This document shows, one piece after another, positions 8,803 to 41,753 of a stretch of 64,000 nt of DNA. A model generated the notes under the pieces. It had not been told where the DNA came from. It made no database searches and saw nothing but the letters and a program-made list of their open reading frames with translations. Positions within the stretch are counted from its first letter, which is position 1, and the number at the start of each line of letters is the position of its first letter. The translations under genes were made by a program, and so were the position numbers. The DNA lies in the NCBI GenBank assembly GCA_017302795.1, contig JAFLCB010000002.1, positions 248,001 through 312,000 of the forward strand, written 5' to 3'. This DNA comes from Deltaproteobacteria bacterium. GTDB lineage: Bacteria > Bdellovibrionota > Bdellovibrionia > Bdellovibrionales > JAMPXM01.

Positions 8803-9039
8803 TTAGCGATCAAGGCCAGAAACTGGAATACAGCCTCCACCTGGACGGCGATCCATCGTCGGACTTTTTGCCGACAAGGAATCCGCCAGGGGAGTGTGTC
8901 CTGCGTTCGAAGTATGAGCAGCGACGCTTTTTACTTCGTTTACACTGTGGTCAGTCTCCACCGATGACGAAATGCGATCGATTGCCTGCGCCGAGGACAA
9001 CGAACCTTCTGGCGAATTTAATTTTTTAATGAATTTCAC
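8803..9039 (-). CDS. Small ORF coupled to a radical SAM enzyme; candidate modified peptide
   Basis: From a GTG at 9039 this frame encodes 78 residues starting MKFIKKLNSPEGSL. GGAG lies 6 nt before the GTG, and the frame overlaps the end of the radical SAM gene by 14 nt, an arrangement typical of translational coupling. A longer version from the ATG at 9087 (AAAGGA ~10 nt upstream) is possible. The peptide is Ser/Ala/Thr/Asp-rich, has no signal peptide or membrane segment, and ends in a Gly-rich tail with its only cysteine, RRPGGGCIPVSGLDR. It stops 25 nt before the kinase start. No family is recognised. A precursor for the adjacent SPASM enzyme is inferred from position only. Confidence 0.5.
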   Translation of the reverse strand: MKFIKKLNSPEGSLSSAQAIDRISSSVETDHSVNEVKSVAAHTSNAGHTPLADSLSAKSPTMDRRPGGGCIPVSGLDR

Positions 9040-10414
9040 TGATGTCTCCGTCGTCTCGTCGACCGTTTGTATATCGTGATTCAGCATATCGTTCAATTCC
9101 TTTGGCGATGATGGTTCGTGTTCGCTCGCAGAAGGCGTGGTCCACCTTGTGCTTATTTCCGTTTTTAACCTTATTTACATGCATACAGCCGCCACCGCAG
9201 ATGTGGCGAGCCCAGCACGAGCCGCAGCCATGCTTCTCGATGAGTGGCTGAGAAAATCCCTGAAGCACAGGGTTCTTCAGGTTTAGTTCTGCGTGATCTG
9301 TCGAACCAAGTTCTTCGTCCTTTTGTCCAACAAACCATTGGCAGGCAGTCAATCGACCGTCGGTATCAAGCTGAAGATGATTTTTGCCAGCCAAACAATG
9401 ATTTTCAATTCGGGCGCGATCGTCGAGCGCGCGAAACAGATGATCAAAAACATGAAGGCGGCGAAGTTCATTTTCGCCCCCGCGTGCATAGGCGAGATCG
9501 GCCACCTCGGAGATGCCTTTTGCGTATATTTTCGATGCCAGTTCGTCGTCAACTTCGGCTGCAAAGTCGAACTTCATCGAATCAAACGGGTATACAGAAA
9601 GAAATTCCCAGGCTCGAACGATGCTTAGCCCATGTTTCCCAAAAACCGCTCCTGCCGTCAAAGAGCCCAGGCGTTCGCGGACCTTCAACAGCTCCTCGAG
9701 CCCCTTTAGCACTAAGGCGCTAGATCCTTTCCCCGATTTCGTCAGGCGAGCGTTGTCGTTGTCTTCAGGATGACCGTCGATCGAGATCGTGACGTGGGCA
9801 TTCATCGATGCGAGCAGTTCGGCCGCATCCGGCGTCACGAGAGTCCCGTTGGTGACGATGTCGAAACGCAGCTTTATTCCTTGGCCTGCAGTGACGAGCT
9901 TTGCGTGTCGTTCGATTGATCGAAGAATCTGAGGATGTAAAAGCGGTTCACCGCCAAGAAACGTAATAACAAATTTTTCGCCGGCGGGAACTTTGTTTAA
10001 AAGCCGAGCCAGCAGTTCTTGGGTCTTTTCAAGGTCAGGTGTTTTAACTTTAGATCCATAGGTTCCGTCGCCTCCGGCCGCGCAATAAGTGCAGGCAAGA
10101 TTGCAGACTTGCGCAACGTTAATCGTGAGCGAACGAATCGCGGGCTCTCGCAATCTCGAAACCGATGTCCCAGATCCTGCGCGTTCTTGTTCCCATTGCT
10201 TCAGCTCAGAAATGGCTTCGTTCTCTTCTTTTGATTCAACCTGGATGGACGGTGATTGAAGTGCGCGAAGAGCAGTCCAAGCCTGCGGAGCAAGAGCAGC
10301 GACTTCCATTGTGTCTGAATGAAAACCAAAAGTCCGCTGGTCGCGGGTTCTCAAGCCGAGAAGTTCGCCGTGCCTGACGATTTCCATCTCCATCGCATTC
10401 GTTTTCTCGATCAC
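9026..10414 (-). CDS. Radical SAM/SPASM peptide-maturase-like protein
   Basis: 462 residues. The radical SAM cluster motif is C104-x3-C108-x2-C111 in VCNLACTYC, followed by a GGEPLL motif near residue 155 and TNGTLVT, which bind S-adenosylmethionine. The C-terminal SPASM-type region (~345-440) carries further cysteines for auxiliary iron-sulfur clusters: TACQW, CGSCWARHICGGGC and AFCERT. The first ~90 residues are an extra domain that could bind a peptide. SPASM enzymes usually modify ribosomal peptides or proteins (RiPP maturases, sulfatase or quinohemoprotein maturation); the substrate here is unknown. The GTG start is backed by an AAGGGGG ~5 nt upstream. First gene of a four-gene operon with a small ORF, kinase and regulator. 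Confidence 0.88.
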   Translation of the reverse strand: MIEKTNAMEMEIVRHGELLGLRTRDQRTFGFHSDTMEVAALAPQAWTALRALQSPSIQVESKEENEAISELKQWEQERAGSGTSVSRLREPAIRSLTINVAQVCNLACTYCAAGGDGTYGSKVKTPDLEKTQELLARLLNKVPAGEKFVITFLGGEPLLHPQILRSIERHAKLVTAGQGIKLRFDIVTNGTLVTPDAAELLASMNAHVTISIDGHPEDNDNARLTKSGKGSSALVLKGLEELLKVRERLGSLTAGAVFGKHGLSIVRAWEFLSVYPFDSMKFDFAAEVDDELASKIYAKGISEVADLAYARGGENELRRLHVFDHLFRALDDRARIENHCLAGKNHLQLDTDGRLTACQWFVGQKDEELGSTDHAELNLKNPVLQGFSQPLIEKHGCGSCWARHICGGGCMHVNKVKNGNKHKVDHAFCERTRTIIAKGIERYAESRYTNGRRDDGDISEIH

Positions 10415-10627: not shown

Positions 10628-10694
10628 GCAACAGGCGTTCCGCCTTCGGGGCAACAGGCGTTCCGCCTTAAGGGCAACAGGCGTTCCGCGCCTT
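10628..10694. repeat. Three tandem ~23-bp units abutting the PBP gene stop
   Basis: GCAACAGGCGTTCCGCCTT occurs at 10628 and 10651, with a third copy at 10674 differing by a 2-nt insertion (GCGCC). Each unit contains a mini-hairpin AGGCG-TTC-CGCCT. The array runs directly into the stop codon of the minus-strand PBP gene at 10693, so on its mRNA the units are serial stem-loops right after the stop. The rest of the ~280-nt gap to the radical SAM gene shows nothing else I can support. Confidence 0.8.
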
Positions 10695-13326
10695 AGAAGA
10701 AGCCGGGTGAAGATTTCGATTTTGATTCTTTGGGTTCGATGATGGTTACGGGCTCTTTAATGAGCTCGCCGATCCCAGGGTATTTTTCGAGGTCAGAAAC
10801 TTCAATCGTCTTAAGCTGAACTGTGTCTGGCCAAGGGAAATCTAAATTGGCAAGAATCGATTTTGAAAGCTTCTGCGAATTAAGCATGAATTGCGACCAA
10901 ATCGGAACTGCGCCTGATCCGCCGGTTAGACCGTGCGATGTGTTGTCATCGTATCCGACCCAAACCACGGCGACCTGATTGGGTGTGAAGCCAGCGAACC
11001 ACGAATCTTTTTTGTCATTCGTGGTACCCGTTTTTCCCGCAGCAGGACCCACGAGTCCCATCGCGCGTGCCCCGCGTCCCGTGCCGTGATCAACTGCAGC
11101 TTTTAAGATTCCAACCAACATACTAGCGGCCTCGGTGTTGACGACGGCCTCCGCAGTCGGCCGGAAACTGTGGAGCTCTCTTCCTGATAAGTCTTCCACT
11201 CTATACAAAGTGGAGAGCGGAACGCGGGATCCTAATCTTGCGAGAGACGTGTAGGCCGCAAGTACCTCAAGCGGAGCGATTTCGAAGGCTCCAAGCGCTA
11301 AGGAAGGAAGGTTTTCGAGTTTAGATGTCATTCCAAGTCGACGTGAAAGTTCAATCACATTTTTGATTCCCACTTCTTGTCCGAGGCGCGCCGTAGATGA
11401 GTTCAGCGATTCGGCAAGAGCGAACCAAAGCGGAACTGTGCCTCGATATTTTCCATCATAATTTTTCGGGGTCCAAGATTGTCCCTCGTATTTTATCGTG
11501 TAGGCGTTGTCATCGAGTTCCGACTCTGGGGTAAACGCCGCTTCTTCCCTTGAGCCTGATTCGAGCGCCGTCAAGTACACGAAGGGTTTCATGACTGAAC
11601 CGACTTGGCGTCGACTTTCAGTAGCTCGATTGTACTGAGTGGCCGTGTAACTACGGCCTCCGACAATGGCGTTGATGAAACCGGAAGATGGATCGGCCGC
11701 GACAAGCAGCGCCTCAAGGCTTTTTCCCTTTTCAGTTTTAATTTTTTTTATCAGTGTGTTTGTTGTTTCAAGTTTTTCAAGTCCTTGTCGCACAGCCCGT
11801 TGTGCTGCCTCTTGGGTGCGTAAATCGAGAGTGGTGTAAACGCGAAGACCTTGCGACAAATCCAATCCTAACGTTTCAAGTTCTTTTCGCGCAGACTTAA
11901 CAAAGTAAGGCGCAGGCTCGGTCATTGATCGAGCAGGGGACTTCGGAAGCGGATGGGCCGATGCACTCGCAGCAGTTTCTGCGTCCAGTCGACCTGACTC
12001 TTTCATTTTTTCGAGGACTCGCGTGCGCCGTTTCATTGCGGCATCGGGTTTCGTGAAAGGGTTGAACATTCCTGGACTATTCAGGATGGCAGCAAGCAGG
12101 GCGCATTCGTGGGTTTCCAATCGATCGATCGGCTTAGCGAAATAGTGCTGAGATGCTGCGGCGAAACCCCGAACTTCGAAGGGTCCGTTTTGCCCCATGT
12201 AAATCAAATTTAAATAGGTTTCTAGGATGTCCTCTTTTGTGGCTCGTCGCTCGACGAGAAACGACATCGCTATTTCTGTGACTTTTCGGCGCAAAGTTTT
12301 TTCTTCAGTGAGAAAGTAGTTCTTTACTAGCTGCTGGGTGATCGTACTGCCGCCTTGTGCGAAACGGCCACGTCGAAGATTAGTTACAACTGCACGAATA
12401 AGTCCCGTGAAGCTGATTCCCGAATGTTCTAAGAAAGCTGGGTCTTCGATCGCCAGAAGTGCATCTTTACAGGCTGGCGGGATTTGGCCCAGGCTCACCT
12501 CTGTGCGCAACGTGGGGCGGTCGCCATAGTATTGAGCATAGAGCTCCGGATTGAGCACCGCGGAATCGACAGGTCGCGGATTCGCACCAGCGAATGTACC
12601 GACGACTTCGCTTTGCGAATTGAAGGCTATGATCTGAACGGGTTCAGAATCCGAGATTCTTGGAGTGGCTCCATCGCTTTCCTCGGCCGCTGGCGGTGGA
12701 AACCCATTCTCATTGGTCTCGTCGCCCGGATCTGAGTCCGACGTCAAGTCGTCCGGGTTGGGCTCGACTCTCGCGTTAATGTCTGCTTGCGAATGAGATG
12801 AATTTTCTTGTATCGACTGTAGGATCGCGCTTGCTGAAAAGCTTGAGGCTGAACTGGGCTGGTGCCGGAAGGCGACACAGCTTTTGATGTCCTTGGCGGT
12901 GAAGTTCTCTGAAGCTTGACTGGTGTTGGGTAAAATCGACGCGCAGCCATCGCCTGGCCACAGGCTAAAGTCAGACGGTTGAAGCGGTTGACCGAACTCA
13001 CGTGCGCGGTACCCGCGCCGGGCAAAAACGGCAGTCAGTTCTTCAGGGCCAAGGATCTGCCCCACTCTTATGAGTTCGGGTGCTGAGTAGAACTCGACCG
13101 GCGGGGCGAATCGTTTTTGCTCAAACCGTTGGGCGATTTCCCGATCGAGTTGAAAAATCCAAGTGCCGACGATAAGCGCGGCGGTGATCGACAGAAAAAA
13201 TAAAATCAGCGCTAGAGCCAGAAGGATTCGACGTTTCCGGCCGCGATTTTGGCTGGTCGGATTTTGCCCGGTTGGATTTTGCCCGTGGCTTTCGTTAGTG
13301 GGAGGGGTCTCGTTCACGTGAAGCAC
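10693..13326 (-). CDS. Bifunctional penicillin-binding protein 1 (PBP1B-like)
   Basis: Class A PBP that polymerises glycan strands and cross-links peptidoglycan in the periplasm. 877 residues: a cytoplasmic basic tail; one membrane segment (~33-57); a UB2H-like region (~65-110) with FYSAPELIRVGQ; a variable Ser/Asp/Glu-rich insert (~130-225); the GT51 glycosyltransferase (~285-450) with EDPAFLEHSG and GGSTITQQLVKN; and the transpeptidase with SVMK near 575, SLNSST near 645 and KTGTTND near 762. The UB2H-like region suggests the PBP1B branch. The GTG start at 13326 has no clear ribosome site; a second in-frame GTG lies three codons on. The 23-bp repeat array follows its stop directly. Confidence 0.92.
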   Translation of the reverse strand: MLHVNETPPTNESHGQNPTGQNPTSQNRGRKRRILLALALILFFLSITAALIVGTWIFQLDREIAQRFEQKRFAPPVEFYSAPELIRVGQILGPEELTAVFARRGYRAREFGQPLQPSDFSLWPGDGCASILPNTSQASENFTAKDIKSCVAFRHQPSSASSFSASAILQSIQENSSHSQADINARVEPNPDDLTSDSDPGDETNENGFPPPAAEESDGATPRISDSEPVQIIAFNSQSEVVGTFAGANPRPVDSAVLNPELYAQYYGDRPTLRTEVSLGQIPPACKDALLAIEDPAFLEHSGISFTGLIRAVVTNLRRGRFAQGGSTITQQLVKNYFLTEEKTLRRKVTEIAMSFLVERRATKEDILETYLNLIYMGQNGPFEVRGFAAASQHYFAKPIDRLETHECALLAAILNSPGMFNPFTKPDAAMKRRTRVLEKMKESGRLDAETAASASAHPLPKSPARSMTEPAPYFVKSARKELETLGLDLSQGLRVYTTLDLRTQEAAQRAVRQGLEKLETTNTLIKKIKTEKGKSLEALLVAADPSSGFINAIVGGRSYTATQYNRATESRRQVGSVMKPFVYLTALESGSREEAAFTPESELDDNAYTIKYEGQSWTPKNYDGKYRGTVPLWFALAESLNSSTARLGQEVGIKNVIELSRRLGMTSKLENLPSLALGAFEIAPLEVLAAYTSLARLGSRVPLSTLYRVEDLSGRELHSFRPTAEAVVNTEAASMLVGILKAAVDHGTGRGARAMGLVGPAAGKTGTTNDKKDSWFAGFTPNQVAVVWVGYDDNTSHGLTGGSGAVPIWSQFMLNSQKLSKSILANLDFPWPDTVQLKTIEVSDLEKYPGIGELIKEPVTIIEPKESKSKSSPGFF

Positions 13327-13472: not shown

Positions 13473-14027
13473 ATGGCAAAGTCGAAATCCGTTAAAAAAG
13501 AAGTAAAAAAAGCTGCTCCTAAGTCTGCAGCCAAATCCGCTGTTAAAGCCGCAAGCAAAACAAAAGCTGCCGCTAAGACAAAAAAGCAGCCTGCAGCAAA
13601 ACTGGCCGTGAAGTCGAAGCCTGCGGCAAAGCCAGCGGCGGCAAAAGTGAAACCGAAAGCCGTTGCGAAGCAGCCGGCGATGATGGACGCAAAAGCCGCT
13701 TCCGCAAAACTGACTATGATCAAAGGCGGGAAGTCGGCCTTTCTTATGCCACTCGACGATCGACTACTTGTTGAAAAGCTCGTCGCGAGCGATCGCACTC
13801 CGGGGGGACTCTATATTCCCGACATGGCGCAAGAACGCCCAACAAAGGGAAAAGTGATTGCGGTTGGAAAAGGTCATCGCGACGCCAAGGGTCGAATTCG
13901 GCCGCTTGATGTCAAAGTTGGCGACGTCGTTTTGTTTACGCAGTGGTCAGGTTCTGAAATCGAGCTCGATGGCGCGACTTTTTTGATTATGCGAGAAACA
14001 GATCTTCTTGGAGTTTCAACGGATTAA
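13473..14027 (+). CDS. GroES-domain protein with Lys/Ala-rich histone-like N-tail
   Basis: 184 residues. Residues 90-182 are a complete Cpn10/GroES domain: LMPLDDRLLVEKL, a mobile-loop-like segment with GGLYIP (~111-116), GKVIAVGKGHRD, VKVGDVVLF and a normal C-terminal ETDLLGV. Residues 1-80 are almost entirely Lys, Ala and Pro, like the tails of bacterial histone H1-like proteins, with no signal peptide. GroES caps the GroEL chaperonin, but no groEL is next to this gene and the normal protein is only ~97 residues. It may be a second, specialised co-chaperonin, possibly tethered to nucleic acid (inference). A weak ribosome site precedes the ATG; a strong terminator follows the stop. Confidence 0.88.
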   Translation: MAKSKSVKKEVKKAAPKSAAKSAVKAASKTKAAAKTKKQPAAKLAVKSKPAAKPAAAKVKPKAVAKQPAMMDAKAASAKLTMIKGGKSAFLMPLDDRLLVEKLVASDRTPGGLYIPDMAQERPTKGKVIAVGKGHRDAKGRIRPLDVKVGDVVLFTQWSGSEIELDGATFLIMRETDLLGVSTD

Positions 14028-14078: not shown

Positions 14079-14247
14079 AGTTCTCCTCCCACTTCTTATT
14101 TCGCGCTCCGCCAGTCCTGGCGAGGGTTTCACGACTTGACCTATTGTGATGTATGGCAATGTAACGTTTCTATTGACCGGCGACTTGATTCGTAGCGGAC
14201 TATGGCCACGGCCAAAGTTAGCGAAGTTTGAAGGAGCAAGTTCCAAT

Positions 14248-15756
14248 ATGAAAAATACGTCGCACGAATTCGGTTTTATAGGTACTTCGGCAAATGCAGG
14301 TCGCCGACGACGCCGCAGCGGTGTTGAGTCGATAGTGAAATTGATCTCACTAGGACTTGCTGTTTCTGCGATCGCGATTTCAGCGTCGCTTTCGTCGGCT
14401 GCGGATCTCCAATGGGGTGGGCTGTATCGATTTGAAGGTGTTCGGATCGACAATCCCGAGCTGAAGTCAGATAAATCCGAAAAAGCCTACATGCTTCATC
14501 ATTTGATTCTTCAACCAAAGATCGTTGCGGCTGACGGGATGACCATCTTTGGTCGATTCGATTTGATGAACAATGCAGGTTTTGGCGTCAACACTCAGGC
14601 CGGCGAGTTTATCGGTAAAGGTGTCGGAGGCGCTACGCCGTCTTCGATTGATAACAGCAACGTTCTCTCGCGCAATCAAGATACGGGCGGCTTGGCCGTC
14701 ACCGAACTTTATATGAGCTGGGCACAAGAGTTTGGTCAGTTGGTGGTAGGCCGCGCACCACTTCATTTCGGGCTCGGAACTTGGTTCAACTCTGGTCGAG
14801 GCAATTTTGATCACTACCTTTCGACCCTCGATATGGTTGGTTATAAAGTAGTGACTGGAAACCTCTTCATTATGCCGATCGTTGGTAAAGTGAACGAGGG
14901 GGCCGTGAACAAGGAAGACGATGTGAACGACTATATGGTTCACGTTCAGTACGACAATCCAGAAACTGAACTCTCGATCGGTCTTCTGTATCAAATTCGA
15001 AATGGTGGCGGAAACGACAACGTCACAAATTCCGACTACATGGGCGGTGTCGGGTCGACGCAGGTTGCGAACTATAAACACAACTACATCGGTGTTTTCT
15101 CTTCTCAGAAGCTTTCGAACTTCACGGTCGCAGTTGAAGCAGGGGTTTTGAGCGGCGACACGGGTGTTCGCTCCAGCGTCGCCAATGGCAGCCAGGATGT
15201 GAAGCTCAACTCCTTCGGTCTTGCTGCTGAGGTCGCTTGGAAACCGGAAGCTTCGAAATGGTCGGCGAACGTGAAGGGCGGATTTGCGACCGGTGATGAT
15301 CCAGGAACAACGGATACCTACGAAGGATATTCGTTCAGCCGAAACTACCGCGTTGGACAGTTGATGTTCACTCATCCGCTTGGTCAGCGGGACTTCTTGC
15401 GCACAGGACTTACTCGAAGTGTAGCTGGAAGTAGCGCAGCTCAAATCGATACAGAAACGATTTCGAACGCGATGTACTTCGCACCTGCTGTACAATATCG
15501 AGCAAGCGATGCGTGGTCGTATGGCGGAACTTTTGTCTTGGGCCGTTTGAATAAAGAGCCTATCGCGGGCGGCAGCACTGGGACGGATCTTGGATACGAA
15601 TTTGATTTGAATTTAACGTGGACTCCATTTGATCGATTCACTTGGATCACGGAAGTGGGAATGCTCTTACCAGGGGAAACATGGAAGGCAGGCCCCGCGA
15701 ACTTGGATAACTCGTTCGCGTATGGAATTACGACCAAGGCCGCTATTCGATTTTAA
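14248..15756 (+). CDS. Outer-membrane beta-barrel (porin-like) protein
   Basis: 502 residues from the ATG at 14248, which has AAGGAG 11 nt upstream. The frame is open further back to 14146, but that part lacks signal-peptide character. An RRRRRSG block precedes a hydrophobic signal segment (~30-50) ending SLSSAAD. The mature part is rich in alternating aromatic/polar strands with Gly, Asn and Asp turns, and ends in phenylalanine (AAIRF), as BAM-assembled barrels do. It resembles porin or alginate-export-like barrels in general build only; substrate and exact family are not recognised. The unusually basic n-region is odd. A strong terminator follows. Confidence 0.8.
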   Translation: MKNTSHEFGFIGTSANAGRRRRRSGVESIVKLISLGLAVSAIAISASLSSAADLQWGGLYRFEGVRIDNPELKSDKSEKAYMLHHLILQPKIVAADGMTIFGRFDLMNNAGFGVNTQAGEFIGKGVGGATPSSIDNSNVLSRNQDTGGLAVTELYMSWAQEFGQLVVGRAPLHFGLGTWFNSGRGNFDHYLSTLDMVGYKVVTGNLFIMPIVGKVNEGAVNKEDDVNDYMVHVQYDNPETELSIGLLYQIRNGGGNDNVTNSDYMGGVGSTQVANYKHNYIGVFSSQKLSNFTVAVEAGVLSGDTGVRSSVANGSQDVKLNSFGLAAEVAWKPEASKWSANVKGGFATGDDPGTTDTYEGYSFSRNYRVGQLMFTHPLGQRDFLRTGLTRSVAGSSAAQIDTETISNAMYFAPAVQYRASDAWSYGGTFVLGRLNKEPIAGGSTGTDLGYEFDLNLTWTPFDRFTWITEVGMLLPGETWKAGPANLDNSFAYGITTKAAIRF

Positions 15757-20183: not shown

Positions 20184-22559
20184 TCAGGTTCGCTCTAAGC
20201 GCGCATACTTTGCGACAAACTTTTTCACTGTATTGTCCGAAAAAACAACGGTCACTTTCGTGTCGCCACCACTTCCTTCAACCTGCAGAACTTGACCGAC
20301 GCCATACGAAGGATGTCTTACGCGCAAACCTTTTCGATATTCAGGTCCCGAGGACGCATCATCAAACGAGTCGCTCCCATTTTCATAATCTGGAAACGGC
20401 GATCCGCCTCGCGCGGAACCTGCAGAACCCATCAAAGGATGGGATTTAGAAGTTCCATATTGTGACGCTTGCGTATCGTCACCGCCCCAACGATCTAAGA
20501 ACCGCGGTCGACTTGAAACAGAGGACTGCTGAACGACGCCCTCCTTTGGAAGCTCTTTTAAAAATCGACTTGGTGGATTCATCTGGTCTGTGCCCCAAAC
20601 TTTTCTAGTCCTAGCGTGGGTCATGAAAAGTCGTTTTTCAGCACGAGTCATACCGACGTAACAAAGTCTTCGTTCTTCTTCGATTTCCGTTGGATCTGCT
20701 GAATCTGTGGCGCGTCCACTTGGGAAAAGATTTTCTTCACAACCAACGATGAAGACATAAGGGTATTCAAGACCCTTCGAAATATGAAGCGTCATCATCG
20801 TGACGGCACGTTCGCCGCCATTACCGTTGCCAGTGTCATCCGCATCGCTGACCAGTGCCATTTCTTCTAAAAATGCCTGTAGGTGACCTTCTTCGCCTCG
20901 TTCTTCCGCAAATTTAGAAATCGCGTTTTGCAATTCTTCAAGGTTTTCAATTCGCGCTTCAGCTTCAGGCGAGCCGTCGGCGATCAACCGTTTTGCGTAC
21001 TCCGTTTTGTCGACAACGGCGATCGACAGGTCAGGAAGCGAAACTTGGCGGGCTTCTTCGCGAAGGGCAACTAGGAGGTTTAAGAAGCTGCGAACTTTTG
21101 ACGTAGTACCAGAATTGAATTCGCGGTTATCGACCGCCATCGACGCGGCCTCCACCATCGAAATACGACTTTGGTTCGAGATCGCCTCAATTCGTTCCAC
21201 GGTTGTTTTTCCAATTCCGCGCGCGGGAACGTTAATGACCCGTTTAAAGCTGATGTCATCGCTTGGATTCAATACGAGCTTCAAATAGCCAAGAATATCT
21301 TTTACTTCCATCCGGTCGTAAAACTTCATACCGCCAACAATTCGGTAGGGAATTGTGCGCGAGCGAAACTGTTCTTCAAGAACCCGGCTTTGTGCATTGG
21401 TTCGATAGAAAACGGAAATCTCTTCTGGCGAAGCATCGGTTTCACGAATGAGTTTCGCGATTTCATTTACTACAAATCGCGCCTCATCGTATTCATTCTG
21501 CTCTTCGCGTACGATGATCGGTTCGCCTACGGGGTTATTTGTGAAAAGAGTTTTGTCTTTTCTTTGAGTGTTGTTGCGGATGACGTGGGTTGCGGCGCCT
21601 ATGATGGTTTGAGTGGACCGATAGTTTTCTTCAAGCTTGACGACCTTGGAATTCGGAAAGTCTTTTTCGAAAGACAAGATGTTTTGGATGTCGGCACCAC
21701 GCCAAGAATAAATCGATTGATCTTCGTCACCGACAACGCAGAGATTTTGATGGCCATCGGAAAGCATTCTGACGATTTTGTACTGCACCGAGTTTGTATC
21801 TTGATACTCGTCCACCATGATGTAGCGAAATTTATTTCTGTAGGCTTCAAGCACCGCAGGATAATCGCGAAAAAGCTGATGAGTCTTAATCAGAAGATCA
21901 CCGAAATCGAGGGCATTGGCTCGCTTCATTTCCTCTTCGTAGCGTTCAAAGACCGCAAGCTGTTGTTCGTCCATCAGATGGCGCCGCTTTCGAACATCAT
22001 CAGGCGTTAGCCCATCAGTTTTGACGGAATTGATTCGTCCAGCAAATAACTTGGCGGGATAGAGCTTTTCGTCGTATCCAAGTGCCGAGGCGACCTTCTT
22101 AACCATCGCCAGTTGTTCCCCTGTGTCATAGATACCAAAGAAGGGTCGATAATCGAGGAGTTCAATGTGTTCACGAAGCAGGCGCGCGCCGATCGAGTGA
22201 AAAGTCGAGATCCACATTCGGTCTTGTTGATTGAAAGAGGATTCGCCTTTGCCAAGACCAAGTTCGCGAAGCAGCGTTTGAGTTCGGTGCTCCATTTCGC
22301 GCGCGGCTTTGTTGGTAAATGTCACGGCAAGTATTTGTTCGGGGGCCGCACGACCCGTCGCGATCAGGGCCGCAATCCGATGGGTCAGAACACGTGTCTT
22401 CCCAGATCCAGCGCCAGCCAAAATCAAAAGCGGCCCGTCCATCGCTTCAACGGCCTCGGCCTGTGGTGGATTAAGTCCACGTGTAATCGCCTCCAGAAGA
22501 GTTGTAGATCCTTCATGTCGCATCTCGATTGTATTCTCCTGAAAGTCCTCGTGAAGCAC
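20184..22559 (-). CDS. UvrD/PcrA-type superfamily 1 DNA helicase
   Basis: 791-residue 3'-to-5' helicase of the UvrD/PcrA/Rep group, acting in repair and at stalled forks. Walker A GAGSGKT is at 49-55, motif Ia follows in AVTFTNKAAREM, the DEYQDTN Walker B box lies near residue 250, GDEDQSIYSWRGA follows, and VMMTLHISKGLEYPYVFIVG-type motif V lies near residue 590. The C-terminal VRHPSYGVGQVLQVEG segment is the Tudor-like tail of PcrA/UvrD, which binds RNA polymerase. The GTG at 22559 has GAGGG 6-7 nt upstream; an ATG 12 codons in is the alternative start. Confidence 0.93.
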   Translation of the reverse strand: MLHEDFQENTIEMRHEGSTTLLEAITRGLNPPQAEAVEAMDGPLLILAGAGSGKTRVLTHRIAALIATGRAAPEQILAVTFTNKAAREMEHRTQTLLRELGLGKGESSFNQQDRMWISTFHSIGARLLREHIELLDYRPFFGIYDTGEQLAMVKKVASALGYDEKLYPAKLFAGRINSVKTDGLTPDDVRKRRHLMDEQQLAVFERYEEEMKRANALDFGDLLIKTHQLFRDYPAVLEAYRNKFRYIMVDEYQDTNSVQYKIVRMLSDGHQNLCVVGDEDQSIYSWRGADIQNILSFEKDFPNSKVVKLEENYRSTQTIIGAATHVIRNNTQRKDKTLFTNNPVGEPIIVREEQNEYDEARFVVNEIAKLIRETDASPEEISVFYRTNAQSRVLEEQFRSRTIPYRIVGGMKFYDRMEVKDILGYLKLVLNPSDDISFKRVINVPARGIGKTTVERIEAISNQSRISMVEAASMAVDNREFNSGTTSKVRSFLNLLVALREEARQVSLPDLSIAVVDKTEYAKRLIADGSPEAEARIENLEELQNAISKFAEERGEEGHLQAFLEEMALVSDADDTGNGNGGERAVTMMTLHISKGLEYPYVFIVGCEENLFPSGRATDSADPTEIEEERRLCYVGMTRAEKRLFMTHARTRKVWGTDQMNPPSRFLKELPKEGVVQQSSVSSRPRFLDRWGGDDTQASQYGTSKSHPLMGSAGSARGGSPFPDYENGSDSFDDASSGPEYRKGLRVRHPSYGVGQVLQVEGSGGDTKVTVVFSDNTVKKFVAKYARLERT

Positions 22560-22682
22560 TTTAAGCCCTCGCCGCTGGTTGACTACCGGTTTTTTCGCGG
22601 TGCCATTTTTCGGCCCGCTCCGTGCTTTCCAACTCGCCTTGTGGGTTTAGCGGATTTGCCTCGAAAGAGGAACGAGATTGCG

Positions 22683-24041
22683 GTGCTTCCGGGACGAGAA
22701 TTCGGCCTCTGGACAGCTATTCTCGCCGTTTTGCTTGGTACTAGTGCCTGTGCCCCAGTTTCAGAGAGCGAATCTTCGGAAAATCAGGTGTATCGGCTTC
22801 CATGGCCATCGGGGTCAGGAAAGTACGAACTTCAGGACATCGTTCTTCAGACTTTCACCGAGCCACAGAAGCTTCGTGGTCAGGTGGCGGAGATCATCGT
22901 CGATCCTCGCGTCACCAGTGGGCAACTGATCGGCGAAGAACCGATCGGTCGTTGGACAGAAACGAATGTGAACGGCGTTTTGAGAAGAATCCCTTCGGAC
23001 TTTGTCACTCTTCAAGCGGCCGTGTTGTACGCCCATCATGAAAAACTTAATCTCATCGATCGTAGTTTGGGTCTCTTTCCCTATTTAAAAGGACCGTCGA
23101 AAATTGGACTCCTTTCTCGGTTGTCGGACGGATTTTCGACACAGCTGATTCTAAACAACGCGATCTTTGATGGGCGACTGGATGTTTTGTTTGTTGTTCC
23201 GTTCACAGGACCAGAACTTCCCATTTCAATGAATGCGGGAATCATCGCCCACGAGCACTTTCATCGACTCTTCCAAGCGGTAGTTTTGCGTCGGCTTCAG
23301 GCGATGCCAATTCAAGGTATCGAAATTCAGCAAGAGCATGCGTGCGCGGGAGCAAAAGCTTCTGCTGAAGAAGCTTCTGGCACCGAAGCTTCGCCAACTG
23401 AGGCCGTTGCCGGTCTGCCGTTGGAAGATCAACTGGTACCACTTAAGATTTGGAATCAAACGGTTTTGCGCGGGGTGAACGAAGGCCTCGCCGATTTTTG
23501 GGGCTGGTCGTATGCGAACGATGACTTTTTTGTCGGGCGGTCATTAGGCGAACAGGAAGACTCGGCCAGAAGACTCGATCGCAAACCTTCTAAACTTCCG
23601 TCCCAAGTCGCTTTCCGAAACATGTTGATCACGATCGGCTCGTCAGGGCGTCCTGTGTTGAAGTCCGAATCCGGCCGAGTTGCGGCGTCCTATCGACTTG
23701 GAACGGAATACGGCCGTCTGCTACGCACGCTTGTCGACGCTGTGGAAGCCTCAGGGGTTGATCGAGAAAAGTCCAGAGCGCAAGTTCGCAGAGCGGTTGG
23801 TCGCTCCCTAGAAAGTCTTGCCATCGACATTTCTACTTTGTGGTTGAAAGACGAATTGAATCCCGAGCTTCTGCTTCGTCCCGTGATTTCTGGACTTCTA
23901 TCTTCGGCTGGCGGCGAGGGAATCGAGGCACTTTCGGCTGGAAGTATCAGGGCTGTTTGTCGTGAGCTGAAGGCACTGAGTGCGTCTAAAGAATTACTGG
24001 GAGAAAGCTGCCCAGCCGAGACGCCAGGGGTGACTCCGTGA
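22683..24041 (+). CDS. Putative zinc metallopeptidase lipoprotein
   Basis: 452 residues from a GTG at 22683 (AGAGGA 11 nt upstream); an in-frame TTG at 22656 would add a basic RKR n-region and is a fair alternative. A hydrophobic segment ends in GTSAC, a plausible though not ideal lipobox. HEHFH at about 190-194 fits HExxH, and NEGLADFWGW at about 266 resembles the NExxxDxxG block that supplies the third zinc ligand in thermolysin-like gluzincins. No exact family is recognised, so peptidase activity is inference. The next gene starts in the stop codon (4-nt overlap), so the two products probably work together at the outer membrane. Confidence 0.7.
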   Translation: MLPGREFGLWTAILAVLLGTSACAPVSESESSENQVYRLPWPSGSGKYELQDIVLQTFTEPQKLRGQVAEIIVDPRVTSGQLIGEEPIGRWTETNVNGVLRRIPSDFVTLQAAVLYAHHEKLNLIDRSLGLFPYLKGPSKIGLLSRLSDGFSTQLILNNAIFDGRLDVLFVVPFTGPELPISMNAGIIAHEHFHRLFQAVVLRRLQAMPIQGIEIQQEHACAGAKASAEEASGTEASPTEAVAGLPLEDQLVPLKIWNQTVLRGVNEGLADFWGWSYANDDFFVGRSLGEQEDSARRLDRKPSKLPSQVAFRNMLITIGSSGRPVLKSESGRVAASYRLGTEYGRLLRTLVDAVEASGVDREKSRAQVRRAVGRSLESLAIDISTLWLKDELNPELLLRPVISGLLSSAGGEGIEALSAGSIRAVCRELKALSASKELLGESCPAETPGVTP

Positions 24042-38432: not shown

Positions 38433-41400
38433 ATGGAGAAGGGGCATTTTCTATTCCTGCTTTGCAGGTCATTTGTATTCGCGCTGCTTCTCGTTGTGAC
38501 TGCGGATATCTCGGTGGCACGCGTGCCACTCGATGTCGCCACAGTCTCCAGACTTACGAGTCTAACCTTAAGCGCTATTCCTGAATTCAAAGCGATGGAT
38601 GAAATTGCCGAAACCTCAAACCTGCGGGTGGCGGCTTACGGCGGTACTGCTCGTGAAGTTACCGATCTTGTCATCGAACGTGTGAACACACTCGGATCCG
38701 TCGACGCCTACGTCAATTGGCTAAAGAGCCAAAGCAATATCTCCATTGTCGATTGGCATCGCTTGCAAAGTGATTTGGATGTCATGTTGATACCCAACGA
38801 AGGCGCGGATGTGCCGATATCTCCGCAGAGAATGGCAGAGATAGATGCGGTGAGAAAGAAAATCGACCTTCGATTTCCGCAGAGTGTCTTCTACAAACGA
38901 ATTGACCTCATCGTCCCACAAGAGTTTTTTGTAAAGTATCCGGTTGGTAATGAACACTTCGAGCCGATCTCTAACTTGGCGATTACGGCCAAGGGAGTCG
39001 AACGGCTTCCGCAACTGAATGTTGAATTTGACGGTAAGAAAATCAACATGGGCGACGAGGGGCTGCGGCAGTTCGCTTCGGGACAATTGGATTTTCGCCT
39101 CAATCCGTCAGCTGTGCCGGGTTCAGGGACGAATAATACTTTCGGACTTTTAAGACAGGCACTGCGGTGGATCCGCTATCTTTCAGAATATCCCGATTCG
39201 GAAGTCACGCCCGAGACCGACAAAACGATTCGGACCGTTGTTCAGCAGCTAGAGCGTGATGCTTCGGGTGAGGTTCAGACTTTGCTTCGCGACGGACACA
39301 GTAAATATAAGCCAGGAAAGCCGAGCTTTGCAGAGGGCGCAAAGCTCATTGAGCAGCTGGAAAAGCTTCAATTGTATTCGAAGAATTCTGCGAAAACACG
39401 CAAGCTGCTTGAAACATATGGGATCGTCAAAATGGCAGAAGCAGCGGGGATCGCGAAGGAACGTATCTTAGTTCCTATTCCGCAGCGACCGAAAGACATC
39501 CCGGTGGCTGGGAAAAAATTGGGGAAGGAAATTGTTGTCCGACATCGCACAAGCCTCAACGCTGCCCAGAATATTTCTCGCGGTGCACTCTGGGCTTCCA
39601 ACGACAGCTCTATGATCGGAGATAAAGCGATGCAAGCGGCAAACGGCCCAGGGCTTTACGCCGCCCACGAATTCGATTCGCTGTCTTATGGCGACCATTA
39701 CGTTTCTATTACTCTCAGCGCCGAGGCCGTTGAGGGAGTCGACTTTCGACGTCAGGGGCAGTGGTTTGTCATCATGACCGAGAACGCAATCGCGAGAGAT
39801 GCAGGCGGCAATCGAAAAATCGATAGGGTCACCCAAAAAGAACTGCTTAGAAATTTAACCGAGATCCTGGATAATCGCGGTTTACAGAGAAAAAATCGTC
39901 TTTCAGTGTTGCGTGGTATCGGCGGTTTATTGAATCCAGAAACTTCTTCGGCTGACTTTGATTCTTTCAAAAACGTTTATGCACAGGCTGAGCAGCGCGG
40001 TATTGGTCGAGAGTTCCTCGCATCGCTCTTGTCGCGACCGCATCTCGATTCACATCTTTCAAATCTCCAGTCGCCGCTCCGCAAATGGTTGAGCGCAGAA
40101 ATGAAATCTGGATTCGACACAGATAGTATCACTTCTCATACTGGCCGAATAAACGCTGCAGAACTCGTGATCCCAGCTGGAATGACTGATCAGGCAGAGA
40201 TCGCAGCACTTCCGGCGCAAATCAAACGAGACTTTTTAAACGTCACCTATGCGCTACCCGAGGAAATGCGTGCTCGCTATGACGCTCGATTAAAAATTTT
40301 GGAAACCGAATCTGACCCGTCCTTTCGACTTGCGGTCGAATTTTGGAAGTCAAGTTCGAGAATTCCCGATGAAGCGTCGGAACAGCGGGTGCTTGCATTA
40401 CTTAAAGAAATTCCGAATCCTGACCGCGCCACTCTTTCGCAGGTTCAGCGGATGGTTGATTATTCGAAGAAGTACCCGGCAAGTATCGGTGAATATCTTT
40501 ATCAGCATCTTGACCTTATCGACGATCCGGCCGAGCGCGCAAGGATCGCGATTCGTGCTGGCTATGTTCGACCAGATCTTTTTCGAGCGTTGAACATCGA
40601 CGGGCAGAGATCAGAAGTAAATATTCGAAATTTGGTTAAGAGATTGGGTCCAACAGATGCGATGAAGAAAACAGCGGCGGAACTCATGGCGTCCCGCGAT
40701 CCGAAGGCGCAAGCAATAGCTGTCCGGATCGGCGCAGCTCAGGCTTCCTTTTCAGATATTCCGCTCGAAAAGTTAGCTTTGGATTTCGATTTTCGCGGCC
40801 TACCAGAAGATGTTCTGGAAGAAGTGTTTAAAGGATTTCAGGCGCAACCTTCTGCAACTATTCGGCACGCGCAGCATTTGCATGCACTTTCGCGAGTGAA
40901 ACTTTCTGAGGATTCGATGCGAGCCGGGCCCCTTCGCAGAGCGGTTATCAGCGCAATCTCAAATGGTGGAGTCGAAGCTTTGCGTGCGGTATCAGATCTG
41001 AACGGAGATGCCCTGTCGAATTTGGTCAGAGAATTGTCAGATCGCAAGAAACGCGATCTCCCGACGGAAAAGTTACTTTTGGAATGGCTAGAGAAGACTT
41101 CCGACGCGAAGATGCAGTCGGCAATCCTGGACTACTTTTGGAAATCGAGTCTTACGTTTGGGCGCGACCAAGCATCCAAAGAAGAACCACTTTTCAAAAT
41201 CGCGGCGCAACTGGCAGAGAAAAGTACTGACCCCAATGTCCGTCGGAATGCTTATGGTGTCCTGTCTTGGAATTTTCGCGATCGACCCGAGGTTTTAGAA
41301 ATTGCAGCGCGCAATATTGGGACTGAAACAGACCATCATGTCCTGCAATCGATTTACGGAGCCGCTCAGTCAGCCGTTTATGAAAAGCCATTTGGCACCT

Positions 41401-41753
41401 ACAACGACGAATTGGCAGTTGCTGCCTTTGAGGCGATGTCGAAGAATCCCGCAGGAAACCCGCAGCATGCCAAGTTCATGTTGGAGTGTCTCGAATGGCA
41501 GCGAGGTGAACCTCTGCGGCGGCAGGCGTACCTAGATCAGATCAAAAGCCTCAGGCCTCCCGATCCAGTTCCAGCTCCGGTAAAAATAAATGCAGTGGTT
41601 TCCGGGCCCGTCGCTTTGGAACAGACGGCTCCAGTGGCAATAAGGGCCGCTTCTTCAACGGATGCAGTGCCGCCTAGCACTCAGCAGCTGAAAGGCCTAA
41701 GGCGTTTCCTGCCAGAATGTGCAAAGTGGTTCGAAAAATTGCGAAAGCGTTAA
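38433..41753 (+). CDS. Large exported protein with NTase-like and ART-like motifs and helical repeats
   Basis: 1106 residues; no known family recognised as a whole. A signal peptide (~1-30, LFLLCRSFVFALLLVVTADISVAR) predicts export. YGGTARE (69-75) and SDLDVML (113-119) recall the GG...DxD pattern of nucleotidyltransferase head domains. VRHRTSLNAAQNISRGALW (~369-387) followed by GPGLYAAHEFDSLSYGDHY (~405-423) recalls the H-x-T, G-x-G-x-Y and YG elements of ADP-ribosyltransferase-like folds. Residues ~640-1010 look like HEAT/armadillo-type helical repeats. All three domain calls are inference from motifs. It could be an effector acting on prey or host, or an envelope scaffold. The stop overlaps the convergent sigma-factor gene by 4 nt. 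Confidence 0.7.
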   Translation: MEKGHFLFLLCRSFVFALLLVVTADISVARVPLDVATVSRLTSLTLSAIPEFKAMDEIAETSNLRVAAYGGTAREVTDLVIERVNTLGSVDAYVNWLKSQSNISIVDWHRLQSDLDVMLIPNEGADVPISPQRMAEIDAVRKKIDLRFPQSVFYKRIDLIVPQEFFVKYPVGNEHFEPISNLAITAKGVERLPQLNVEFDGKKINMGDEGLRQFASGQLDFRLNPSAVPGSGTNNTFGLLRQALRWIRYLSEYPDSEVTPETDKTIRTVVQQLERDASGEVQTLLRDGHSKYKPGKPSFAEGAKLIEQLEKLQLYSKNSAKTRKLLETYGIVKMAEAAGIAKERILVPIPQRPKDIPVAGKKLGKEIVVRHRTSLNAAQNISRGALWASNDSSMIGDKAMQAANGPGLYAAHEFDSLSYGDHYVSITLSAEAVEGVDFRRQGQWFVIMTENAIARDAGGNRKIDRVTQKELLRNLTEILDNRGLQRKNRLSVLRGIGGLLNPETSSADFDSFKNVYAQAEQRGIGREFLASLLSRPHLDSHLSNLQSPLRKWLSAEMKSGFDTDSITSHTGRINAAELVIPAGMTDQAEIAALPAQIKRDFLNVTYALPEEMRARYDARLKILETESDPSFRLAVEFWKSSSRIPDEASEQRVLALLKEIPNPDRATLSQVQRMVDYSKKYPASIGEYLYQHLDLIDDPAERARIAIRAGYVRPDLFRALNIDGQRSEVNIRNLVKRLGPTDAMKKTAAELMASRDPKAQAIAVRIGAAQASFSDIPLEKLALDFDFRGLPEDVLEEVFKGFQAQPSATIRHAQHLHALSRVKLSEDSMRAGPLRRAVISAISNGGVEALRAVSDLNGDALSNLVRELSDRKKRDLPTEKLLLEWLEKTSDAKMQSAILDYFWKSSLTFGRDQASKEEPLFKIAAQLAEKSTDPNVRRNAYGVLSWNFRDRPEVLEIAARNIGTETDHHVLQSIYGAAQSAVYEKPFGTYNDELAVAAFEAMSKNPAGNPQHAKFMLECLEWQRGEPLRRQAYLDQIKSLRPPDPVPAPVKINAVVSGPVALEQTAPVAIRAASSTDAVPPSTQQLKGLRRFLPECAKWFEKLRKR

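Follow-up and report, generated by a model that had tools for sequence, protein, structure and literature searches.

The window, the 64,000-nucleotide stretch of DNA analysed here, carries an open reading frame in which a GroES (Cpn10) domain follows a Lys/Ala/Pro-rich segment, raising the question of whether this segment belongs to the protein and, if so, what a co-chaperonin would use it for. As summarized in Table 1, the fusion recognized in the first-pass annotation is real: the 184-aa frame opens with ATG and runs through a tail of residues 1-88 into a complete Cpn10 domain. The domain, which had been called intact, scored 97 bits against a curated Pfam cut-off of 21.1, its beginning being shifted slightly to residue ~91-92. 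Foldseek placed the core next to solved Cpn10/GroES structures, chains of the GroEL-GroES complex among them, and phmmer also matched it to solved GroES/Cpn10. In an AlphaFold model based on an alignment of 43 sequences, the blocks of the Cpn10 domain had pLDDT values of 71-94; the tail was modelled without secondary structure, its ten-residue blocks averaging a pLDDT of 44-59.

Table 1. Positions of the tailed groES gene, its parts and its conserved neighbours in the window.
Feature	Position	Strand	Basis
groES2, tailed second co-chaperonin, 184 aa	13473..14027	+	ORF; Pfam Cpn10; 45 tailed homologues in 60 genomes
Lys/Ala/Pro-rich disordered tail, residues 1-88, net charge +24	13473..13736	+	Composition; pLDDT; coding selection in homologous tails
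Cpn10 (GroES) domain, residues 92-181	13746..14015	+	Pfam PF00166, 97 bits; Foldseek and phmmer against solved GroES/Cpn10
GroEL-contact hydrophobic triad of the mobile loop, L113-Y114-I115 (E. coli GroES I25-V26-L27)	13809..13817	+	Alignment of 42 GroES2 and 46 GroES1
Basic roof hairpin, residues 133-143 (E. coli positions 45-55)	13869..13901	+	Net charge comparison
Divergent class A penicillin-binding protein (PBP1), conserved upstream neighbour	10693..13326	-	Pfam, NCBIfam; 43/45 loci
Barrel-type gene, conserved downstream neighbour	14251..15756	+	NCBIfam TIGR04551, E 1.9e-17; 42/45 loci

The tail consists of ~30% Lys and ~30% Ala and lacks aromatic residues, and its Lys density (24 per 80 aa) compares with at most 14 in the other window ORFs of at least 150 aa. 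Its proposed likeness to histone H1-like proteins holds in part: the composition agrees, and 6 of 43 GroES2 family members have a match to Pfam HC2 ("Histone H1-like nucleoprotein"), but the window protein itself gave no HC2 match and is not filed as a member of that family. No hydrophobic stretch was found in the window tail, ruling out a signal peptide. Furthermore, when the tail only was searched against its own genome at E values up to 10, the sole match was the tail itself, so that it is not a copy of another Lys-rich protein of the same genome.

The genome containing the window, that of a relative of the predator Bdellovibrio, measures 4.23 Mb in 39 contigs at 98.6% completeness; it encodes two Cpn10 proteins and one Cpn60. 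The other Cpn10 (GroES1) adjoins the sole Cpn60 on contig 5; since this normal groES-groEL pair, whose existence had been left to be checked, is present elsewhere in the genome, the window gene is a solo second groES, hereafter GroES2. As had been remarked at first pass, no groEL is adjacent, and the flanking genes are those for PBP1 on the minus strand and a TIGR04551-like barrel-type protein on the plus strand. In a tree of 42 GroES2 cores and 46 GroES1 sequences, the two groups were split without a misplaced sequence (support 0.96). Judged from its sequence, the window gene is an old second co-chaperonin of the order and the same paralogue as bd3349 of Bdellovibrio.

Of the 60 genomes that represent the order here, 45 encode a tailed GroES2, and one more GroES2-like core, in G030, is cut by a contig end. 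Every complete copy is tailed; no tail-less GroES2 occurred at the 45 loci. The tails are 46-213 aa long (median 118; the longest in L052), with 24-54% Lys and net charges from +17 to +99 (median +36). Compared with L060, the closest relative in the sample, the window protein shows 43% identity in the tail and 82% in the core; the tail sequence drifts and its composition stays. In the phylum sample, counted from the listed rows, 82 of 105 genomes of the order had two Cpn10 matches, and 10 of 185 genomes outside the order did so, none in an open frame longer than 132 aa; a tailed second GroES elsewhere in the phylum is thus unsupported. Note that three single-copy genomes outside the order (G083, G114 and G117) contain long open frames, and that a crude motif filter missed their groES. 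A scan of genome contigs for tailed GroES, insensitive to distant relatives, returned only L034 (Bdellovibrionota). On the other hand, groES2 is cleanly absent from 11 genomes that keep a DUF507 gene and the barrel-type gene in locus order (PBP1 being visible in 10), and these losses indicate that groES2 is not universally needed. The gene can be lost, but the tail is kept wherever the gene is kept. Separately, G015, a genome of the order that is 99% complete, has no Cpn10 match at all, and its DUF507/barrel-type locus is present without groES2.

These comparisons have a bearing on whether the tail is translated, since a start near residue 80 (for example at M83) would leave a GroES of normal size. 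In the window gene, such a misannotated start would put the onset of translation at residue ~70-83; the corresponding proposal for bd3349, the reannotation published in 2012 (PMC3464611), speaks for it, as do the codons M70, M71 and M82. The Shine-Dalgarno site at M1 is moderate (-3.1 kcal/mol); the sites at the three internal Met codons are weaker, and one internal GTG scores higher (-5.0 kcal/mol). Because of the moderate M1 site, the case for a translated tail in the window gene rests on homology, and the decisive evidence comes from the relatives. At all 45 tailed loci the start codon (GTG in 28, ATG in 17) is followed by Ala, typically as MAKK or MATK, a count partly due to selection because the start rule demanded Ala or Ser after the start. 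Shine-Dalgarno pairing averaged -7.2 kcal/mol at the tail start versus -1.6 kcal/mol at internal start codons. Moreover, the stretch from tail residue 20 to the core is free of ATG in 35 of the 45 homologues, and in four it lacks GTG and TTG as well. At 21 loci the tail start overlaps the end of the upstream DUF507 gene by 8-17 bases, which suggests translational coupling.

The tail is also under strong purifying selection in close pairs. In five such pairs the dN/dS of the tail was 0.06-0.16; third codon positions had changed 11-39 times, each of the other two positions 2-12 times. In the same pairs the other two forward frames contained stops and gave ratios above 1; one antisense frame gave low ratios too, as it mirrors the third codon position, but it had stops in every pair. 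We therefore consider the tail almost certainly translated, and an internal start, rejected at the family level by the Shine-Dalgarno comparison, the missing internal start codons and the dN/dS values, hardly credible.

The same reasoning applies to bd3349. Lambert et al. named this gene groES2 in 2012 and moved its start to a Met at base 322 on the grounds that the preceding region is repetitive, which left a protein of 117 aa (PMC3464611). The published numbers are matched exactly by L036 and L039, each with 224 aa and a Met at codon 108 from which 117 aa follow, and both are therefore inferred to belong to the B. bacteriovorus type. This Met is lacking in L068, a close relative with 95% tail identity across the aligned codons. 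Together with the purifying selection on the tail, its absence makes the 117-aa model very probably wrong and the tail, by these sequence comparisons, very probably part of the protein. The correction matters in that the published start discards about half of the bd3349 protein: GroES2 has been partly published already, and its distinguishing half was discarded. The expression data in the same paper, obtained with HD100, show that groES2 is expressed in wild type at 2-4 h of predation only and is de-repressed in a bd0743 sigma-factor mutant (PMC3464611).

With the tail accepted as part of the protein, the next question is whether GroES2 still works with GroEL. Positions 25-27 (E. coli numbering), the hydrophobic triad by which the mobile loop of GroES contacts GroEL, keep this character in all of the 42 GroES2 cores compared, and T21 and G23-G24 are nearly invariant. 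Because the triad is kept, a loss of GroEL binding is unlikely, and GroES2 probably still caps GroEL, as far as its residues can tell. The roof of the lid differs between the paralogues. Roof positions 50-51 are mostly Lys-Lys in GroES2 and acidic in GroES1 (Ala-Lys in the window protein), and the net charge of positions 45-55 averages +4.4 in GroES2 (minimum +3) versus +0.7 in GroES1 (maximum +1). A basic roof and a basic tail lead to the same prediction, namely a lid that would meet a polyanion.

Two readings had been offered at first pass, a co-chaperonin with an anchor and a repurposed Cpn10. In the latter, the heptamer would be a scaffold showing seven H1-like tails that condenses or bridges DNA without GroEL, and the solo gene with no groEL beside it, the strongly basic tail and roof, and the H1-like tail composition are all compatible with it. 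However, a scaffold would have no need of a triad that stays hydrophobic in every core, or of the nearly invariant T21 and G23-G24, making this an improbable reading. The co-chaperonin with an anchor fits better owing to the conserved GroEL-contact triad, which speaks for the lid; the anchor is a prediction drawn from the tail.

Across the order the locus comprises PBP1 (divergent), DUF507a, DUF507b, groES2 and the barrel-type gene, with PBP1 at 43 of 45 loci and the barrel-type gene at 42 of 45, several of the exceptions being cut by contig ends. The window groES2 likewise sits between PBP1 and the barrel-type gene. The TIGR04551 match of the latter is weak (E 1.9e-17, far under the family cut-off), its start is uncertain, as a GTG at 14146 could also serve, and a PDB search with its protein gave no match. 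It is possibly a client or functional partner of groES2.

Several further observations were made at this locus. In 21 relatives (for example L041, upstream of groES2 at 2866) a DUF507 pair corresponds to the first and second halves of the Pfam model and lies immediately 5' of either groES2 or the barrel-type gene. The barrel-type gene stays beside DUF507 where groES2 is absent. The structure of DUF507 has been solved and its function is not known (PMC10439177). In the window's own genus and in g20, a Bdellovibrio-like genus, the sampled genomes gave no DUF507 match at all. In L016, L062, L063 and L064, shortly before the tail start of groES2, a TTGAC-like hexamer followed on its 3' side by a TTTAGTC/ATTAGTC-like box was seen by eye and is a possible promoter. 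A sigma-70 scan around the window groES2 returned no promoter-like site. In addition, a conserved block near TTTAATCGTGGTCGCAACATA lies ~80-100 bases upstream of the groES2 start in Bdellovibrio-like genomes (L035, L036, L039, L042, L044, L049, L053, L069, L070 and L072) and may be a regulatory element. Elsewhere in the window, 9026-10414 (-) encodes a radical SAM protein whose Cys-rich C-terminus appears by eye to be of the SPASM type, and two long ORFs, 38433-41753 (+; 1106 aa) and 22113-24041 (+; 642 aa), have no Pfam match.

Taken with the tail and the roof, the kept contact residues and family knowledge lead us to propose that the Cpn10 domain of GroES2 would form a heptameric lid on the single GroEL of the genome. 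The ring would display seven disordered polycationic tails (~+24 each in the window protein) together with the basic roof, and the tails would act as a sticky tether holding the GroEL-GroES2 complex on a polyanion, with the nucleoid as first candidate. GroES2 would be stage-specific, appearing late in predation in Bdellovibrio, and general folding would be left to GroES1. We give an about even chance to this reading as a whole, an alternative GroEL lid whose tails hold the chaperonin on the nucleoid or on some other polyanion; the lid is well supported and the tether is presumed. Tethering to a polyanion or surface is probably the main role of the tail.

The nucleoid comes first for two reasons. 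AlgP and PhaF have Lys/Ala/Pro tails for which DNA binding is shown or assumed and which contribute to granule positioning (PMC9239181), and late groES2 expression coincides with chromosome recompaction, which takes place before the filament constrictions close (PMC11318664). Because composition and not sequence is conserved, any polyanion partner fits and DNA is not singled out; overall, the balance between DNA and another partner is roughly equal. A narrower version, in which an order-wide, stage-specific lid places GroEL on the nucleoid and couples folding to chromosome recompaction at predator-filament division, is tentative and less likely than not. Against a nucleoid tether, the neighbours of groES2 concern the envelope and not the chromosome. 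The PBP1 and barrel-type genes would rather suit tails that fix the chaperonin to the anionic inner membrane, to ribosomes or RNA, or to polyphosphate granules, the last being where H1-like AlgP localises (PMC9239181). For the membrane option there is also a hydrophobic, transmembrane-like stretch of 19 residues (mean hydropathy 1.9-2.0) between tail and Cpn10 in one genus only (L017:1492-2214 (-) and L023:1501-2106 (-)). However, this stretch is missing from the remaining tails, and genes that lie side by side may act in different parts of the cell. We regard these other partners together as somewhat unlikely.

The tails of a GroEL lid could also act inside the folding chamber, altering its charge or capacity for particular clients, as with phage T4 gp31. 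The chamber of GroEL-GroES has a capacity of roughly 60 kDa, and seven tails of ~9 kDa (up to 213 aa each in L052) would largely fill it; the wide span of tail lengths, 46-213 aa, also speaks against a part tailored to the chamber interior. Bdellovibrio groES2 has been proposed to supply an alternative lid for clients of the late stage, and synteny could link a client gene, the barrel-type neighbour, to it; however, Lambert et al. found no added gp31 homology in groES2 (PMC3464611). We consider this explanation quite improbable and retain the tethered lid.

Among known systems, bd3349 is the closest: it is a second, solo groES of the same clade with the same PBP1 and barrel-type neighbours. 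It differs in that its published model drops the tail, whereas the present data indicate a translated one, and in that the published expression timing refers to Bdellovibrio alone. Phage T4 gp31 is likewise an alternative lid for host GroEL, but it has no such tail and is a weak fold match to the window core (1g31, E 0.018). GroEL1 of Mycobacterium tuberculosis, as cited in PMC5904260, is a duplicated chaperonin component with reported nucleoid association, but an Hsp60 subunit, whereas GroES2 is a lid. AlgP and PhaF, the KPAA-tail proteins of Pseudomonas (PMC9239181), resemble GroES2 in carrying a disordered, tether-like Lys/Ala/Pro tail on a folded domain; their tail is C-terminal and built of KPAA repeats, and their cargo is polyphosphate or PHA granules and not a chaperonin; we claim no homology. 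With canonical GroES/Cpn10 (PF00166), GroES2 shares the full domain, the contact triad and the fold, but adds a polycationic tail of 46-213 aa and a basic roof hairpin, and in the window it lies outside the groESL operon. GroES is among the most uniform small bacterial proteins, yet most of an order keeps a tailed second version of it, whose tail the sole paper found on groES2 set aside. Should the tails serve as anchors, the cellular site of folding would be set by the lid of the chaperonin.
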